This document shows positions 46,771 to 55,143 of a stretch of DNA of 64,000 bases, one piece after another (the first letter of the stretch is position 1; every line of letters starts with the position of its first letter). The translations under genes and the position numbers were made by a program. The stretch is taken from assembly GCA_016744295.1 (NCBI GenBank), contig JADGEQ010000029.1, forward strand, positions 27,929 to 91,928, read 5' to 3'. This DNA comes from Desulfobacteraceae bacterium (lineage in GTDB: Bacteria > Desulfobacterota > Desulfobacteria > Desulfobacterales > Desulfobacteraceae). The notes beneath the pieces were generated by a model that saw only the letters and a list, made by a program, of their open reading frames with translations, made no database searches and was not told the origin of the DNA.

Positions 46771-46860
46771 GATCTGTCTTTTAAAAAACAAGATTTCAAA
46801 CAAGCAATTGCCTGATTCAATTTTAGTTTTAACACTAATTTATTATATGGAATTTAATTG

Positions 46861-48207
46861 ATGGAAAAAATCAAGATTTCCAAAGGGTTTACCCCAAAAC
46901 TTGCCGGAATGCCGGACACGAGCCTCATAAAATTACCCCCACCCCATACCATCGGACTGTCGGCCATGGATATTCCCCATATCCGTCCCAAACTACTGGT
47001 AAAGGAAAACGACAGGGTAAAAACCGGAACGCCTTTGTTCTGCGACAAACGGGATATTTCCATTCAATATGTATCTCCGGGCACAGGATCAATCAAAAAA
47101 ATCCGATTTGGAGAACGCAGAAAATTGCAGGAAATAGTCATTGCCCTGGACAAATCGGATAAATCAGCCAAATCAGAAGCCTTTATCCAATTTGATCCTG
47201 TCTCACGATCAACGCTTAAAAGCCTTTCCAAACAAGAGTTGATCCTCCAACTCAAACAGGGGGGACTATGGCAGTGCCTGCGCCAGTTTCCGGCAAAGGA
47301 TACTGCGGACAGCAGCCATATCCCGGCCATGATCATTGTCTCTCTGAACGGCAATGATATTTTTTCTCCCCACCCGGGCATTTTGATTGGACGGGAAAAA
47401 GCCGCCTTTGAATTTGGTCTGGAGATGCTAAAACTATTCTCCAATCGGATTGTTGTAACAGCCCGGCAAAGCAGTCTGCCTGAACTCGAATCTGTCAAAG
47501 CCCATATCACCCACCAGGTCACAGATACCTACCCGGCCTGGGATCCGGGAGTAGTGCTTTTTCACTTGAAAAAATCCATGGAAGAAAATACAGCCTGGTG
47601 TATCACTGCAGAACACCTGGTCATGATGGGTAAATTTTTGCTCACGGGCCGATACCCCATTGAAAAAATAGTAACCATCACAAAAAAAGGGGATAAAAAA
47701 CCCCATATCCTGACCCGGCAGGGAGCCCCCATTAAAACCATAGCCGGCAGTTTTCACCGGGAGGGAATGATCACCACGGGCCGGTTCAATGGCAGGATTG
47801 CCGATATAGAAGACCATTTGGGTCTCTTTGAAAACACCCTGAACATCATTGATAACGCCGGAGAAGAGGAATTATTCGGATTCATCAAACCCGGCACTGA
47901 CAAAACAAGCGTTTCAAGGGCCTTTCTGTCCTGTCTTTCCAACAGCCCCAAACAAGAGGACTGCACCCTCCACGGAGAGGAAAGGGCCTGTATTAATTGC
48001 AGCTATTGTGAAAACATCTGCCCCAATGATCTGATGCCCAATTTCATCATGAAGGCCCTGCACAGCGATGAGATAGAAAACGCTCTGGAATACGGGTTGC
48101 TGGACTGCTGTCGCTGCGGGCTATGCTCCTATACCTGTCCCTCCAAAATAGAACTGGCAAAAATTTTATCCCATGGAATGGATTCCCATTATAAGGACAA
48201 AGCATGA
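46861..48207 (+). CDS. nqrA: Na+-translocating NADH:quinone reductase subunit A, with two 4Fe-4S motifs
   Basis: 448 residues from the ATG at 46861 (the track uses the TTG before it). NqrA sits on the cytoplasmic side and contacts NqrB near the quinone site. N-terminal barrel (ISKGFTPKLAGMP, IRPKLLVKENDRVKTGTPLFCDK, YVSPGTGSIKKIRFGERR) and the LTGRYPIEKIVTITKKG segment are NqrA-like. Near the end are two complete ferredoxin motifs, CINCSYCENICP and CRCGLCSYTCP, as in RnfC. NqrA of Vibrio and chlamydiae lacks these cysteines. The downstream genes are clearly Nqr rather than Rnf, so this looks like an NqrA that kept ancestral clusters. Confidence 0.87.
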   Translation: MEKIKISKGFTPKLAGMPDTSLIKLPPPHTIGLSAMDIPHIRPKLLVKENDRVKTGTPLFCDKRDISIQYVSPGTGSIKKIRFGERRKLQEIVIALDKSDKSAKSEAFIQFDPVSRSTLKSLSKQELILQLKQGGLWQCLRQFPAKDTADSSHIPAMIIVSLNGNDIFSPHPGILIGREKAAFEFGLEMLKLFSNRIVVTARQSSLPELESVKAHITHQVTDTYPAWDPGVVLFHLKKSMEENTAWCITAEHLVMMGKFLLTGRYPIEKIVTITKKGDKKPHILTRQGAPIKTIAGSFHREGMITTGRFNGRIADIEDHLGLFENTLNIIDNAGEEELFGFIKPGTDKTSVSRAFLSCLSNSPKQEDCTLHGEERACINCSYCENICPNDLMPNFIMKALHSDEIENALEYGLLDCCRCGLCSYTCPSKIELAKILSHGMDSHYKDKA

Positions 48208-49364
48208 ATCCCTTAAAAAAACTGTTCGATGAAAGTGAACCCCATTTTACAGAATCCGGAAAATATAAAAAATTTGCGCCCCTGTTCGAAGCCACCAAAA
48301 CATTTTTCTTTTTTCCCTCGCCTAAAAACAAGGTAATGCCCTTTATCCGGGACCATTTGGACCTCAAACGGTATATGAGCTTTGTCCTTATTGCGCTTTT
48401 ACCTGTTCTGCTTTTTGGCATGTATAATACGGGGTTTCAATCCGGAATTGCCACGGGGGAAAGTTTTGGTTTAGGCAAATCCTTTCTGGTGGGTGCCGGC
48501 TATGTGCTGCCCATCATCATTGTTTCCTATGGCGTAGGATTTTTTTGGGAAATCCTCTTTGCCGTTATCCGAAAACATAAAATCAGTGAAGGATTCCTGG
48601 TAACCGGAATCTTGTTTCCCCTGACCCTGCCGGCCACCATTCCTTTGTGGCAGGTAGCTTTAGGGATCTCCTTCGGGGTTGTCATCGGCAAGGAAGTCTT
48701 TGGCGGCACCGGCCGGAATATTTTAAACCCGGCCCTGACCGCCCGGGCCTTTGTCTTTTTTTCCTATCCGGTTACCATGTCCGGAAACGTCTGGGTGGCG
48801 GTAAAAGACGGTGTGGATGGGATCTCCGGTGCCACCGCCCTTGCCGTCTCAGGGATGGAGGGTGAATCCATTACCGCAGCCCTTTCTTCTGCGGGCTTTT
48901 CATTGTCCGATCTTTTTCTGGGAATTGTACCGGGCAGCATCGGTGAGAGTTCGGCCCTGTGCTGTCTGTTGGGCGCTTTTTTCCTCATCCTCACCCGCAT
49001 CGCAAATTATCGCATTATTATAGGCGGAATTGCAGGATTGGTGGTAACGGCCATCTTCTTTTACCTCATTCCGGGAGGGCAGGAAACCTGGGCCAATGCA
49101 GGCCCCCTCTACCATTTATGCGCCGGGGGGTTTTTGTTCGGAATCTCTTTCATGGCAACGGATCCGGTTTCCGCCCCGGGCACCCATTGGGGGAGATGGG
49201 CATTTGGCTTTTTCATCGGATTTCTCACGGTGACCATCCGGGTGATAAATCCGGCCTTTGTGGAAGGCACCATGCTGGCCATTCTTTTCATGAATGTATT
49301 TGCCCCCCTGCTGGACCACATGGTCATCAAATACAAAACATCAAAGAGGATACCCAATGTCTGA
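48204..49364 (+). CDS. nqrB: Na+-NQR subunit B
   Basis: 386-residue integral membrane subunit, about ten helices. The N-terminus is typical (KYKKFAPLFEATKTFFFFP, IRDHLDLKRYMSFVLIALLPVLLFGMYN). The covalent FMN threonine lies in DGISGATAL. It provides part of the Na+ channel and the ubiquinone/menaquinone site. It overlaps nqrA by four bases (ATGA) and nqrC by eight. Confidence 0.93.
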   Translation: MNPLKKLFDESEPHFTESGKYKKFAPLFEATKTFFFFPSPKNKVMPFIRDHLDLKRYMSFVLIALLPVLLFGMYNTGFQSGIATGESFGLGKSFLVGAGYVLPIIIVSYGVGFFWEILFAVIRKHKISEGFLVTGILFPLTLPATIPLWQVALGISFGVVIGKEVFGGTGRNILNPALTARAFVFFSYPVTMSGNVWVAVKDGVDGISGATALAVSGMEGESITAALSSAGFSLSDLFLGIVPGSIGESSALCCLLGAFFLILTRIANYRIIIGGIAGLVVTAIFFYLIPGGQETWANAGPLYHLCAGGFLFGISFMATDPVSAPGTHWGRWAFGFFIGFLTVTIRVINPAFVEGTMLAILFMNVFAPLLDHMVIKYKTSKRIPNV

Positions 49365-50082
49365 ATCCAAGCCAGATAAAAATAGCAGAATAAATGTGAT
49401 CAAATTTGCATTGCTGGTTTCCTTTGTCTGCAGTCTGCTGATCACGGGGGCCGCCGGTGGTTTAAAAAAATTCCAACTGGAAAATATTGAGCTGGATAAA
49501 CAACTCAATCTTCTCAAGGCAGCCAACCTCGTCGAGCCCGGGAACAAACCCTCCAGAGAAGAGATCAAGCGACTATATGATACCCATATCCAGGCGGTGA
49601 TCGTGGACAGCCAGGGAAAAATTCTTGCAGCAGACATTGGGGATTCCCTGCATCTGTATTTTTTTAAAACCGAGGATGTGATCCAGGGGTATATTCTGCC
49701 CATCAACAGCCGGGGGCTCTGGGGGAAAATCAGAGGATACCTGGCCTTTGAAAATGATGGTCAGACCGTGTCCGGTTTTTCCGTGTTCAGCCATTCCGAA
49801 ACCCCCGGGCTGGGAGGTGAGATTGAAAGTGCCTGGTTTCAAAAAAATTTCAAGGGGAAAAAAATACTCAATTCCCAGAATAAATTTGTATCCGTGGGCA
49901 TTGCCAAGGGAAAAGTTGCCAACCTGCCTGAAACAGACAGAGGAAACTATGTGGATGGTATCAGCGGGGCCACCCTGACCGGAAAATACCTTTCCCAGGG
50001 CATCAAATCCACCCTTGCGCAATATGAAGCCGTCTCCATCACCTTCCGTCAGAAAAAACTGACCGCCACAGAAGAAAAGTAA
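49357..50082 (+). CDS. nqrC: Na+-NQR subunit C
   Basis: 241 residues from the ATG at 49357 behind AAAGAGGATACCC; the track start (49294) lies inside nqrB. One N-terminal membrane helix (FALLVSFVCSLLITGAAGG) anchors a periplasmic FMN-binding domain. The covalent FMN site is DGISGATLTGKY. Also visible is FSHSETPGLGGEIESAWF. The 8-base overlap with nqrB implies translational coupling. Confidence 0.93.
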   Translation: MSESKPDKNSRINVIKFALLVSFVCSLLITGAAGGLKKFQLENIELDKQLNLLKAANLVEPGNKPSREEIKRLYDTHIQAVIVDSQGKILAADIGDSLHLYFFKTEDVIQGYILPINSRGLWGKIRGYLAFENDGQTVSGFSVFSHSETPGLGGEIESAWFQKNFKGKKILNSQNKFVSVGIAKGKVANLPETDRGNYVDGISGATLTGKYLSQGIKSTLAQYEAVSITFRQKKLTATEEK

Positions 50083-50091
50083 AGGATACCC

Positions 50092-50724
50092 ATGTTAAAA
50101 GAAAAAAGTCACTATATGGAAATACTGATCCGGGGTATCTGGAAAGAGAATCCCGTGGCCTACCAGGTCCTAGGCATATGTTCAGCCCTTGCCGTCACCG
50201 TGAAGATGTCCACTGCCATTGTCATGGCCATTGCCCTGACAGTGGTCACGGCATTTTCCAGCATGATCATCTCTTCTTTGCGAAAAAAGATCCCCTCCAA
50301 TATCCGGATCATCGTAGAGCTGGCCGTCATTGCTTCCCTGGTAATCGTCACCGATGAGGTACTCAAGGCCTTTTTCTATGATACTTCCAAGCAGCTGTCC
50401 ATCTTTGTGGGGTTGATCATTACCAATTGTATCGTGTTGGGCAGGGCCGAAGCCTTTGCCCTGGCAAATGACCCCGTTGATTCCTTTGTGGACGGAATCG
50501 CCAACGGCATCGGCTACGGAATGATACTGGTTTTTGTGGCCTTTTTACGGGAATTGCTGGGATCGGGAAAAATATTCGGTCTGCCCGTGATCCCACAAGT
50601 GTTATTTGATGCCGGTTACCAGAACATGGGACTCATGGTATTGGCCCCGGGTGCATTCTTCATTATAGGGCTGCTGGTCTGGCTCAAAAACAGTTTGCCG
50701 GGGGTTTCCAGTGAAAAGAAATAA
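50092..50724 (+). CDS. nqrD: Na+-NQR subunit D
   Basis: 210-residue membrane subunit with six helices; [21 protein letters not shown] and [24 protein letters not shown] are close to the family. With NqrE it forms the pseudo-symmetric pair that binds an intramembrane 2Fe-2S cluster; its Cys is in GICSALA, and [12 protein letters not shown] follows. The ATG is preceded by AAAGGATACCC. RnfE homologues are similar, but the genomic order is Nqr. Confidence 0.92.
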
Positions 50725-50747: not shown

Positions 50748-51356
50748 ATGGGTGATTTATTAAGTCTGTTTATCAATTCTGTGTTTATCGGAAATATCCT
50801 TCTGGCATATTTTTTGGGGATGTGTTCCTTTATTGCCGTATCCAAAAATATTGAAACTGCAACCGGGTTAGGGTTTGCCGTTATCTTTGTCCTCACCGTC
50901 ACAAGCCCCGTAAACTGGCTGATCTACCACGGCCTATTAGCGCCGGGGGCCCTTGCCTGGGCCGGATTTCCCGACCTGGACCTAAGTTTTTTAAAATTTA
51001 TCACCTTTATCGCTGTAATTGCCGCCATTGTTCAGGCAGTTGAAATGATCATTGATAAGTATTCCCCTTTGCTCTATGCCACCCTGGGGGTGTTTTTGCC
51101 CCTCATTGCCGTGAATTGTGCCATCCTGGGCACCTCGCTTTTCATGGTGGAAAGAAACTATACCCTGGTCGAATCCATTATTTTCGGGGCGGGCTCGGGC
51201 ACAGGCTGGATGCTGGCCATTGTGTCCATGGCAGCCATCCGGAAAAAGGCCCAATATGCCGATGTCCCCAAGGGACTTGACGGATTTGGTATTACCATGA
51301 TCATTGCAGGCCTCATGGCCATGACATTTATGATGTTCTCGGGAATTACCCTTTAA
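50748..51356 (+). CDS. nqrE: Na+-NQR subunit E
   Basis: 202 residues, six helices. [29 protein letters not shown] is diagnostic, and the cluster Cys is in [22 protein letters not shown] is the second half-motif. It completes the NqrDE pair. A strong AAGGAGTTACA site precedes the ATG. Confidence 0.94.
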
Positions 51357-51368
51357 AGGAGAGAATAA

Positions 51369-52580
51369 TTGATTTACCTTATCAGCATACTTGTCTTTTC
51401 AGGCGTCATCTTTTCCCTGGTCGCGGTTCTGCTTTTTGTGGAAGCCAAGGTTACCAGTGAGGGAGAACATGAGGTCATCATCAACAATAACCGGGAAACC
51501 CCCCTAAAAGTTTCCGGCAATCCCTCCCTTTTGTCTGCCCTGTCAAACCAGGAAATTTTCCTGCCTTCGGCCTGCGGCGGATCAGGCTCCTGCGGCATGT
51601 GCAAATGCGAGGTAACGGCAGGGGGAGGAAGCATTTTACCCACGGAGCTGGCCCATCTGAGCCGCAGGGACAAGCTGACAAACAAGCGGCTCTCCTGCCA
51701 GCTCAAGGTAAAAGAAAATCTTGAAATCAAAATTCCCGAATCCATTTTCGGCATCAAAAAAATCAATGCCACGGTCATCTCCAATGATAATGTGGCCACC
51801 TTTATCAAGGAGTTGGTATTGAGCCCCGAGATCCCCATGGATTTCAAGGCCGGGGCCTATATCCAGATTGATGTGCCGGAATATGATTTAACCTTTAAGG
51901 ATTTTCAAATTGCCAGTAAATATGTCAGTGAATGGAAAAAATACAATTTTCTCTCCCTGAGTTCCAGGGGGAAAAAAGCCGGTTTCAGGGCCTATTCCCT
52001 GGCAAATCCCCCCCATGACAATGGGATCATGATGATGAATGTCAGGATTGCCACCCCGCCGCCGGGTACCGAGGGTATCCCCCCGGGATTCGGCTCCTCC
52101 TTTGTCTTTGGTCTGAAACCCGGGGACAAGGTCCAGATCAGTGGGCCCTACGGGGACTTCATGGCCAAAGAAACAGAGAATGAAATGTGTTTTATCGGCG
52201 GCGGCGCCGGCATGGCCCCCCTGAGAAGTCATATCCTTCACCAGCTGGATGGGATTAACACCCAGCGGAAAATCAGCTTTTGGTATGGCGCCAGGTCGAA
52301 AAAAGAGATGTTCTATGATGAAACCTTCAAGGATCTGGATCAGCGCTATGCCAATTTTGATTACAAGATTGCCCTTTCCAATCCTGATCCCGAGGATAAT
52401 TGGACCGGGATGACAGGGTTTATTCACAACCATTTGTGCGGGGGCTATTTGTGTGACCATGAAGACCCCACAGAGATCGAGTTCTATTTGTGCGGCCCGC
52501 CCCCTATGATTGATGCCATTATCAACGCCCTCCATGATCTTGGTGTGGAAGATGACATGATTTTTTATGATAAATTTTAA
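51369..52580 (+). CDS. nqrF: Na+-NQR subunit F, NADH-oxidising
   Basis: 403 residues from a TTG start behind AAAGGAGAG (no nearby ATG). One N-terminal helix (ISILVFSGVIFSLVAVLLFVE), a 2Fe-2S ferredoxin domain (ACGGSGSCGMCKCEV...LSCQLKV), an FAD domain (RAYSLANPP, with GFGSSFVFGLKPGD) and an NADH domain (FIGGGAGMAPLRSH, FYLCGPPPMIDA). It is the electron entry subunit. Its presence instead of an RnfB confirms an NADH-dependent Nqr. pyrD follows 14 bases later. Confidence 0.95.
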   Translation: MIYLISILVFSGVIFSLVAVLLFVEAKVTSEGEHEVIINNNRETPLKVSGNPSLLSALSNQEIFLPSACGGSGSCGMCKCEVTAGGGSILPTELAHLSRRDKLTNKRLSCQLKVKENLEIKIPESIFGIKKINATVISNDNVATFIKELVLSPEIPMDFKAGAYIQIDVPEYDLTFKDFQIASKYVSEWKKYNFLSLSSRGKKAGFRAYSLANPPHDNGIMMMNVRIATPPPGTEGIPPGFGSSFVFGLKPGDKVQISGPYGDFMAKETENEMCFIGGGAGMAPLRSHILHQLDGINTQRKISFWYGARSKKEMFYDETFKDLDQRYANFDYKIALSNPDPEDNWTGMTGFIHNHLCGGYLCDHEDPTEIEFYLCGPPPMIDAIINALHDLGVEDDMIFYDKF

Positions 52581-52594
52581 AAAGAGCCAACACC

Positions 52595-53539
52595 ATGACA
52601 ATTAGATTTCTTGGTAAAACATTAAAAAATCCCCTGGTGCTGGCATCGGGGGTTCTTGGGAACAATAAGGAAATTCTGGAACGTGTCCATGCGAGCGGAT
52701 GCGGCCTTGTGACCATGAAATCCATAGGTTTTGCCCCAAGGGACGGACATAAAAATCCAACCGTCATTGACCTTGGACACGGAATGATCAATGCCGTGGG
52801 CCTGCCCACCCCGGGATACGCCCACATGGAAGCGGAGTGGGAAGCCCTTGAAACGAGAGATTTCCCCATCAATGCCAGCATCTACGGCGGCTCGGTAAAA
52901 GAATACCAAACCGTGGCAAAATTTGTTTCAGCCAAAAATCCCGATTTCATTGAGATTAATATTTCCTGCCCCAATTCCGACCAGCACGGCATGATCTTCG
53001 GAGTAAACGAACAATCGGCCTTTGACGTGGTTGCAGCGGTTAAGCAGGTGATTGATCTTCCTTTGATTGCCAAGCTGACCCCCCAGGCACCTGATATCGC
53101 CAAAATTGCAAAGGCCTGCGAAGATGCCGGGGCCGATGCCATCTGCGCCATTAATACGGCCGGCCCGGGCATGGTCATTGACATTGAAGCCCAAATGCCC
53201 GTACTGGCATTTAAAAAGGGCGGACTTTCAGGCCCCATGATAAAACCCATTGCCATTCGATGTGTCTATGATATTTACAGAGAAGTTTCCATCCCCATCA
53301 TCGGCCTTGGCGGCGTAACCACGGGAAAAGATGCCGTGGAAATGATCATGGCGGGAGCCAGCCTGGTGGGCATTGGTTCAGGCGTCCGGTACAGGGGTAT
53401 GGGCATTTTTAATCGGGTCAACCAGGAGCTTGATGACTGGCTTACTGCCCATGACACCACCATCAAGGATATCCGGGGTGCCGCCCATAAAAAAGACGCA
53501 GTCCATAAACATGTTCCCCTAGAAGAGAGTCCCCAATGA
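52595..53539 (+). CDS. pyrD: Dihydroorotate dehydrogenase B, catalytic subunit
   Basis: 314-residue TIM-barrel FMN enzyme of pyrimidine synthesis, class 1B (cytoplasmic, NAD-linked through PyrK). Motifs: PLVLASGVLGNNKEIL, FIEINISCPNSDQHGM with the catalytic Cys, INTAGPGMVIDIE, and IPIIGLGGVTTGKDAVEMIMAGASLVGIGSG. SD is weak (AAGAGCC), suggesting coupling to nqrF. It overlaps pyrK by ATGA. Confidence 0.95.
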   Translation: MTIRFLGKTLKNPLVLASGVLGNNKEILERVHASGCGLVTMKSIGFAPRDGHKNPTVIDLGHGMINAVGLPTPGYAHMEAEWEALETRDFPINASIYGGSVKEYQTVAKFVSAKNPDFIEINISCPNSDQHGMIFGVNEQSAFDVVAAVKQVIDLPLIAKLTPQAPDIAKIAKACEDAGADAICAINTAGPGMVIDIEAQMPVLAFKKGGLSGPMIKPIAIRCVYDIYREVSIPIIGLGGVTTGKDAVEMIMAGASLVGIGSGVRYRGMGIFNRVNQELDDWLTAHDTTIKDIRGAAHKKDAVHKHVPLEESPQ

Positions 53540-54399
53540 AAGACGTTACCGACCAGAACCCCATCATGCTCAGGGTGGTCAAAAAAGAGAGCCATGGCCC
53601 ACACTTTGCCACCCTGCATTTTAACTATACCCTAGGATTCAAGCCCGGACAGTTTGTCATGGTCTGGATTCCCGGTCTGGATGAAAAACCCTATACCATT
53701 TCCCATCATACCCAGGCAGGGTTCGGCATCACCATCGAAGCCAAGGGTATTTTTTCCAAACGAGCCGTGGGTCTGGAACCCGGGGATCTTGTGGGATTTC
53801 GGGGGCCCTTTGGCAACGGGTTTCGCATTTCTTCACCCGACAATATTGCTGTTGTGGCCGGCGGTTGCGGCATGGCCCCCCTGGCCCCCCTGGTTGAAGC
53901 CCTTGAAAAAAAGGCCAACACTGATAAAACGAACAAAACAGATAAAAACATCCTGTTTATCCACGGTGCCAGATCCAAAGCGTTTATCCTGTATCCCAAT
54001 CGGTTTGAAACACAGAGACAAATCTGCACCGACGACGGCAGTGAGGGACACAAAGGATTTGTCACCGATCTTTTGGAACAAGAAATTTTGAGCCGGAAAA
54101 AAACCCGAGAAAACCCATTGGAAATGGTCTATGCCTGCGGCCCGGAAATCATGATGCACCGTATTTATCTTATCTGTGAATCCTTTGGCATTCCCTGCCA
54201 GGTATCCCTGGAGCGATATATGCGCTGTGGATTTGGTGTATGCGGTGCCTGTGTCTGCGGAAAACAGGTGGTGTGCAAGGACGGGCCGGTATTTGAGTCA
54301 AACCGTCTTCGAACCATGGATGATTTTAACAAAACAGCCCTGTTAAAATCCGGAAAACCCGTCACCATGGACCAGTATTTTTCATGGAGATGTCAGTAA
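53536..54399 (+). CDS. pyrK: Dihydroorotate dehydrogenase electron-transfer subunit
   Basis: 287 residues. FAD domain (KPYTISHHTQAGFGITIEAKG), NAD-binding region (VAGGCGMAPLAPLVEALE, YACGPEIMMHRI) and the 2Fe-2S cysteines (MRCGFGVCGACVCGKQVVCKDGPVF). It shuttles electrons from PyrD to NAD+. It is translationally coupled to pyrD. The chain is slightly longer than many PyrK proteins because of a Lys/Thr-rich loop near residue 130 (ANTDKTNKTDKN). Confidence 0.94.
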   Translation: MKDVTDQNPIMLRVVKKESHGPHFATLHFNYTLGFKPGQFVMVWIPGLDEKPYTISHHTQAGFGITIEAKGIFSKRAVGLEPGDLVGFRGPFGNGFRISSPDNIAVVAGGCGMAPLAPLVEALEKKANTDKTNKTDKNILFIHGARSKAFILYPNRFETQRQICTDDGSEGHKGFVTDLLEQEILSRKKTRENPLEMVYACGPEIMMHRIYLICESFGIPCQVSLERYMRCGFGVCGACVCGKQVVCKDGPVFESNRLRTMDDFNKTALLKSGKPVTMDQYFSWRCQ

Positions 54400-54474
54400 C
54401 CCGATATTTCAACTCATATTTATCAACTTAATATTTAACTGCTTACTATTTAACTGCAAAAACAAAAGGACCCC

Positions 54475-55143
54475 ATGACATACCAACACCAATTTATTGA
54501 ATTTTTAGTGAGATGCAATGCCTTAAAATTTGGTGAGTTTGAATTAAAAAGCGGTCGCATCGCCCCCTACTTCATCAATACCGGCATGTTTGACACCGGC
54601 AGCAAAATCAAAAGACTGGGCACCTATTATGCAAAAGCCATCCAGGAGCACTTTGGACAAGATTTTGACGGGATATACGGCCCTGCCTATAAGGGAATCC
54701 CCCTGTGCATTACCGCCGCCGCCGCTCTGTCTGACATGGGCCTTGACAAGGGATATGTTTTCAACAGGAAAGAAGCCAAAACCTATGCTGACAAAAGCGC
54801 TGTGGTGGGCATGCCCCTAACCGCCGGCACCCGCCTTGTTCTGGTGGATGATGTCATCACCTCGGGCAAGGCCATCCGGGAATCCCTTGAGACGCTGAAA
54901 GCCTGTGACAATCCAAAGGTTACCGGAATTGTCATCAGCGTCAACCGCCAGGAAAAGGGAAAAACAGATGAAAATGCCTTAACAGAAGTTGAAAAGATCC
55001 TGGGGATACCCATTTTTTCCATTGTCACCATTTCAGATATCGTTGGCTATCTGCATAACAGGGTTATTGACGGGAGGGTAATTTTAGACGATACCATGAA
55101 GGAAAAGATTACTCGCTATCTTGAAGAGTACGGGGCAAATTAG
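54475..55143 (+). CDS. pyrE: Orotate phosphoribosyltransferase
   Basis: 222 residues. The PRPP-binding motif is RLVLVDDVITSGKAIRESL; also present are LKSGRIAPYFINTGMFDTG and YGPAYKGIPLCITAAAAL, typical of the longer PyrE subgroup. It forms orotidine 5'-phosphate from orotate and PRPP. The ATG follows AAAAGGACCCC, 75 bases after pyrK. A weak hairpin spans its stop codon. Confidence 0.95.
   Translation: MTYQHQFIEFLVRCNALKFGEFELKSGRIAPYFINTGMFDTGSKIKRLGTYYAKAIQEHFGQDFDGIYGPAYKGIPLCITAAAALSDMGLDKGYVFNRKEAKTYADKSAVVGMPLTAGTRLVLVDDVITSGKAIRESLETLKACDNPKVTGIVISVNRQEKGKTDENALTEVEKILGIPIFSIVTISDIVGYLHNRVIDGRVILDDTMKEKITRYLEEYGAN

Follow-up and report, generated by a model that had tools for sequence, protein, structure and literature searches.

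In the RNF complex, electrons pass from the riboflavin of RnfD to a proximal RnfC cluster (11.7 Å), and then via a distal cluster and FMN to NAD+ (PMC9588780). In canonical NQR, riboflavin reduces quinone directly (PMC12174285). A loop of Vibrio NqrA anchors the subunit and lines the quinone pocket (PMC9325719; for the role of the loop also PMC12779168), and the NqrB residues K54, E144, E157 and G158 contact the quinone or are fully conserved (PMC12779168). NqrA has been proposed to derive from an RnfC in which the FMN, NAD and cluster sites disappeared following the loss of RnfB, leaving a cofactor-free subunit of unassigned function (PMC4014512, PMC12174285). The same studies place the origin of NQR in Bacteroidota and regard the Chlorobi/Bacteroidetes side as the source from which Desulfobacteraceae acquired it (PMC4014512, PMC12174285), and genome papers on sulfate reducers list the complex as an ordinary Nqr (PMC2702500, PMC4046663).

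We analyzed a 64,000-nucleotide stretch of DNA from a Desulfobacteraceae bacterium (the window), which contains an nqrABCDEF operon including NqrF (FAD, 2Fe-2S, NADH), as expected for a Na+-NQR (Table 1). The initial annotation had described the operon apart from nqrA as standard Nqr, and NqrB, NqrC, NqrD, NqrE and NqrF indeed all score above their NCBIfam cut-offs. Their translations contain the covalent FMN motif GISGAT in NqrB and NqrC and the cysteines of NqrD/E. RnfB, the ferredoxin-binding subunit, is absent from Cys-type operons such as this one, and NqrF stands in its place. NqrA itself departs from the definition of Na+-NQR, in which this subunit has no redox cofactor, as it carries two complete cluster motifs. 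Because the tree of the core subunits still puts the complex in the NQR clade, we regard it as a variant NQR. Our preferred reading, with a probability of about 0.6, is that it represents a genuine Na+-pumping NADH:quinone reductase in an ancestral state.

Table 1. Position of the nqr genes and of selected NqrA elements in the window
Feature	Position	Strand	Description
nqrA	46861..48207	+	448 aa; NQRA_N, NQRA_2nd and C-terminal 2[4Fe-4S] ferredoxin-like domain
RnfC FMN-loop position (GGAxFPT in RnfC), here GGLWQCLRQFPAKD	47260..47301	+	FMN-binding signature lost; from RnfC alignment
NQR-specific loop (membrane anchor / quinone pocket side)	47863..47988	+	absent from RnfC; F at Vibrio W337 position, R375 (= Vibrio R372)
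Motif 1, C377-x2-C380-x2-C383-x3-C387-P	47989..48024	+	C377-I-N-C380-S-Y-C383-E-N-I-C387-P388; invariant in 94/94
Motif 2, C416-x2-C419-x2-C422-x3-C426-P	48106..48141	+	C416-C-R-C419-G-L-C422-S-Y-T-C426-P427; invariant in 94/94
nqrB	48204..49364	+	NQR-type N-terminal extension; K54, G140, E144, E157, G158 (Vibrio numbering)
nqrC	49357..50082	+	FMN-binding, SGAT motif; start codon inferred
nqrD	50092..50724	+	TIGR01939 294 bits, cut-off 245
nqrE	50748..51356	+	TIGR01940 302 bits, cut-off 248
nqrF	51369..52580	+	NADH-oxidizing FAD/[2Fe-2S] subunit; TIGR01941 534 bits, cut-off 295

An NqrA with two complete C-x2-C-x2-C-x3-C motifs at the positions of the RnfC clusters had been proposed in the initial annotation, and our reading of the translation (ATG at 46861, with a TTG upstream at 46858) confirms this. 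The second motif is complete as claimed, but the segment quoted for it, CRCGLCSYTCP, starts at C417 and has C-x1-C spacing; the first ligand is in fact C416, invariant in an alignment of the NqrA class, whereas C417 occurs in just 23% of the homologs. Both NQRA domains, N-terminal and second, exceed their Pfam cut-offs, the Fer4 dicluster family Fer4_7 is matched (E 1.8e-6), and the last ∼75 residues match RnfC (TIGR01945, E 1.7e-22). The closest NCBIfam models are the NqrA models NF003761 (437 bits, cut-off 450) and TIGR01936 (239 bits, cut-off 321), both below cut-off. Among solved structures, Vibrio NqrA aligns end to end with the window protein (E 4.6e-42), and residues 374–436 align with RnfC chain 8ahx_C (E 1.1e-10). 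An AlphaFold2 model (two rows from plasmid records left out; mean pLDDT 83, pTM 0.88) has Vibrio NqrA (TM 0.86) and then RnfC (TM 0.72) as its nearest solved folds, with the ferredoxin-like domain modeled at low confidence (pLDDT about 54–68). From these comparisons we infer that the C-terminal domain binds two [4Fe-4S] clusters inherited from RnfC.

The eight cysteines are present in 94/94 full-length NqrAs of the class (95 members were read; the remaining one, L023, is truncated at a contig end and lies outside this count), with a mean per-column identity of these 94 homologs to the window NqrA of 43%. This invariance rules out a chance or decayed motif. In genomes of the same order, Cys-class NqrAs share 33–66% identity with the window protein, and an NqrA-like match was found in 139 of the 292 sampled genomes, mostly of the window's class and in a few cases of the cysteine-less class. 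Nearly all class members come from Desulfobacterales, and among 395 genomes sampled across the phylum the class is almost confined to this order; two other Cys-bearing A subunits (L015 and L016) belong to the only two genomes sampled of another Desulfobacterota class. Our sample covers Desulfobacterota, Bacteroidota and plasmid-borne Pseudomonadota. Both motifs are absent from 51/51 Bacteroidota NqrAs and from 15/15 others (Pseudomonadota and other Desulfobacterota), which for the sampled Pseudomonadota and Bacteroidota bears out the earlier statement that NqrA of Vibrio and Bacteroidetes has lost them; our alignment reveals a motif 2 remnant, ALCxFVCPxK, in canonical NqrA. Two genomes (G648 and G771) encode both a Cys-bearing and a cysteine-less NQR, which hints at non-redundant roles. 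Individual operons deviate in layout: genes for a GMT-like wHTH and a DUF5131 protein are inserted between nqrC and nqrD in genome G798 (L111:7538-9447), and in genome G677 (L139) the NqrA open reading frame is ∼520 aa long with an internal insertion, two extra genes separating nqrA from nqrB.

We found no description of a Cys-bearing NqrA in open-access full texts on NqrA, RnfC, iron-sulfur and sulfate reducers. An earlier description of such proteins as common would have counted against the initial annotation, by its own terms; the papers found call NqrA cofactor-free (PMC4014512, PMC12174285). The Cys class is common within one order, though undescribed in the papers found.

Alignment with RnfC indicates which elements have been exchanged. 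The window NqrA has neither the FMN loop GGAxFPT nor the NAD loop ECEP of RnfC, and a Pfam domain search returned no Complex1_51K match in it. The NQR anchor loop continues straight into motif 1, and the sequence running out of motif 2 reads CPSK (K429, invariant), an ending common to the Cys class, the hybrid operons described below and most cysteine-less NqrAs; the RnfCs compared have CPAK, CPAN, CTAH, CTSQ and similar endings. For the quinone site we compared NqrB K54, G140, E144, E157 and G158 as well as NqrA R372 and the aromatic residue at position 337 (PMC12779168, PMC9325719). K54, G140, E157 and G158 are found in nearly all members of the Cys class, hybrid operons and cysteine-less NQRs and are mostly missing in RNF, while Glu-144 is common to all groups compared, RNF included. 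Arg-372 (Arg-375 in the window) is conserved, and Trp-337 is replaced by phenylalanine in most of the Cys class. Arg-375 lies two residues ahead of the first cluster ligand, and the clusters should therefore adjoin the quinone pocket.

The nqr operons L121/L122 (genomes G043/G079, the only two genomes sampled of their Desulfobacterota class) encode an RnfC/NqrA hybrid A subunit bearing both cluster motifs. This subunit scores higher with RnfC (221–236 bits) than with NqrA (124–153 bits), and in L122 it exceeds the Pfam cut-offs for RnfC_N, for the Nuo51 FMN-binding domain and for NQRA_SLBB, the NqrA C-terminal domain. Its FMN loop is altered and partly degenerate (ALGSTGIPS). The B subunit is NqrB-like with quinone-pocket residues, the C subunit is RnfG-like, and in L122, the one operon in which it was read, the F subunit lies above the NqrF cut-off. 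These operons are rarer than the Cys class and were first found in the present analysis; more speculatively, they may encode an enzyme that has survived from the transition between RNF and NQR.

In an RNF-rooted tree of NqrB, NqrD and NqrE, the NQR clade is separated from RNF with support of 100/100 and the Cys class is recovered at 100/100. The hybrid operons form the first branch of the NQR clade, and the Cys class is then sister to all cysteine-less NQRs (97.3/98; the supports for the order hybrid, Cys class, cysteine-less clade are 98.7/99 and 97.3/98). The same order is returned by a mixture-model tree (Cys class plus cysteine-less NQRs 100/100, cysteine-less clade 94/93) and by an NqrF tree rooted with phenol/benzoate oxygenase reductases (cysteine-less clade 98/93; long outgroup branches). 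AU tests on NqrB/D/E reject a grouping of the Cys class with the hybrid (p 7.8e-9) and do not reject groupings with Bacteroidota (p 0.19) or with the remaining cysteine-less NQRs (p 0.30); with five subunits, in an analysis that omits the ferredoxin domain and uses a “quick” tree of the three sampled phyla, both of the latter are rejected (p 0.0245 and 0.0054, respectively). The initial annotation had raised the possibility of an Rnf-to-Nqr intermediate, and the RNF-rooted trees and the NqrF tree support this in the sense of an ancestral state. The simplest history is that the clusters were inherited from RnfC and disappeared, probably once, in the ancestor from which the sampled canonical NQRs descend. 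Both NqrF and the quinone pocket would predate this loss, because the cysteine-bearing hybrid with NqrF branches first and the Cys class next, and the FMN loop probably decayed before the clusters disappeared. This history differs from the published Bacteroidota origin and from an acquisition by Desulfobacteraceae from that side; Desulfobacterota lineages, not Bacteroidota, are nearest the root in the present sample.

The gene neighborhood varies within the class. In the window, pyrD, pyrK (the electron-transfer subunit of dihydroorotate dehydrogenase B) and pyrE directly follow nqrF (52595-55143); the same arrangement occurs in six other loci and, among the Cys-type operons examined, only in the window's subclade. 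In four other Cys-type loci, cooS, encoding the catalytic subunit of anaerobic CO dehydrogenase, is located downstream of nqr, in some of them with small unnamed open reading frames intervening. No conserved soluble partner gene was found class-wide near the Cys-type operons examined. A search of the window's own genome for NqrM gave no match but carries no weight, since the controls had no match anywhere either.

Electrons from NADH would enter at NqrF (FAD, 2Fe-2S) and pass via the 2Fe-2S center of NqrD/E and the FMN groups of NqrC and NqrB to the NqrB riboflavin and on to (mena)quinone, with Na+ pumped as in other NQRs. Since the quinone pocket and both cluster sites are present and the FMN site is missing, NADH:quinone reduction with Na+ pumping is most likely the main reaction. 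The NqrA clusters would form a side branch in redox contact with riboflavin; with the FMN/NAD site of RnfC lost, they should therefore be unable to reduce NAD+. We consider a role as side port or electron buffer more likely than a purely structural one. Of the two, a side port that exchanges electrons with a soluble carrier is the leading candidate, at somewhat less than even odds, and a function as electron buffer for quinone reduction is by itself unlikely. That this carrier is of low potential, so that the pump, still reacting with quinone, would have two outlets or two inlets in all, is rather doubtful.

The clusters could also be assembled and yet purely structural, holding the C-terminal domain of NqrA on NqrB without useful electron flow until protein packing took over this task in later NQRs. 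Such a role, possible but on the doubtful side, would fit the loss of the FMN/NAD site, which leaves the old electron path ending nowhere, the lack of a conserved acceptor gene near Cys-type operons, and canonical NqrA, which folds alike although it has no clusters (PMC12174285) and keeps remnants of motif 2. It accounts less readily for eight cysteines that are invariant across many families, for a proximal cluster that by homology should lie within electron-transfer distance of riboflavin (PMC9588780), and for the Rnf2 complex encoded in the same genome, which likewise retains the clusters in an RnfC lacking FMN.

It had also been suggested that the clusters serve as a second electron entry, which would run from reduced ferredoxin through NqrA and riboflavin to quinone, by-passing NqrF. 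The hosts are anaerobes with a ferredoxin-based metabolism, cooS follows the operon in the four loci mentioned, and in the genome's own Rnf2 it is RnfB that carries the NAD(P)-binding domain, RnfC having clusters only. We nevertheless consider this entry quite unlikely: Cys-type operons lack RnfB, the RnfC clusters sit downstream of riboflavin, on the side where electrons leave RNF (PMC9588780), electrons entering at riboflavin would skip the steps at NqrD/E and NqrC to which Na+ transport is attributed, and cooS adjoins four loci only, the window not among them. The data fit an outlet, a buffer or a structural role no less well. A different objection concerns descent, namely that the cysteines were regained when an RnfC C terminus replaced that of a cysteine-less NqrA by gene conversion or recombination. 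The genome does contain RNF operons, and the AU test on the membrane core alone tolerates a nested placement, but the NqrA-specific loop leads into motif 1 without a break, the motif 2 ending is of the NQR type and unlike those of the RnfCs compared, independent trees find the cysteine-less clade to be derived, and the five-subunit tests reject nested placements. We therefore disfavor regain as very improbable.

In sum, the Cys-bearing NQR is a real and conserved variant of Na+-NQR, apparently undescribed, and is best understood as an ancestral state that has survived. It would document living intermediates in which NqrF and the quinone pocket arrive with the clusters in place, the FMN loop decays and the clusters go later. 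The function of NqrA becomes testable, because the role of the clusters can be asked in a complex that still has them. Many Desulfobacterales are marine sulfate reducers, and with the class so widespread in this order, its electron connections bear on how energy is conserved in sediments; if the enzyme did have two outlets or two inlets, a single complex would join the NADH, quinone and ferredoxin pools of marine sulfate reducers.

Like the Na+-NQRs of Vibrio cholerae, Bacteroidota and others, the window complex has the six-gene order, the NADH module NqrF, the N-terminal extension of NqrB, the quinone-pocket residues, and the NqrA-specific anchor loop and fold. It differs in the eight invariant cysteines and two predicted [4Fe-4S] clusters of NqrA (none in canonical NqrA, which has a two-residue insertion at motif 2 that the Cys class lacks), in the phenylalanine found at position 337 in most class members and in NqrA scores below the NCBIfam cut-offs. 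With RNF it shares the position and spacing of both RnfC (TIGR01945) cluster motifs, the domain order and homologous core subunits, but it has NqrF rather than RnfB, has lost the FMN and NAD loops, and has gained the anchor loop together with the residues of the quinone pocket. The Rnf2 complex known from Desulfobacteraceae (Desulfobacula toluolica type; PMC5109826, PMC11887813) likewise has an RnfC that keeps both clusters without the FMN loop; it differs in its large RnfB, which contains ferredoxin and GltD-like NAD(P)/FAD domains, in lacking NqrF and the quinone-pocket residues, and in a core that is only distantly related. In the Rnf2-type operon of the window's own genome (L143, G000:C68; L151), RnfB is ∼694 aa long with Fe-S and GltD-like NAD(P)/FAD domains, RnfC has no FMN loop and RnfD lacks the [ST]xAT flavinylation threonine (GYTALAPLA). 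The hybrid operons share with the window a Cys-bearing A subunit, NqrF and the NqrB-type quinone residues, whereas their A subunit is more RnfC than NqrA and matches the Nuo51 FMN domain, and their C subunit resembles RnfG.
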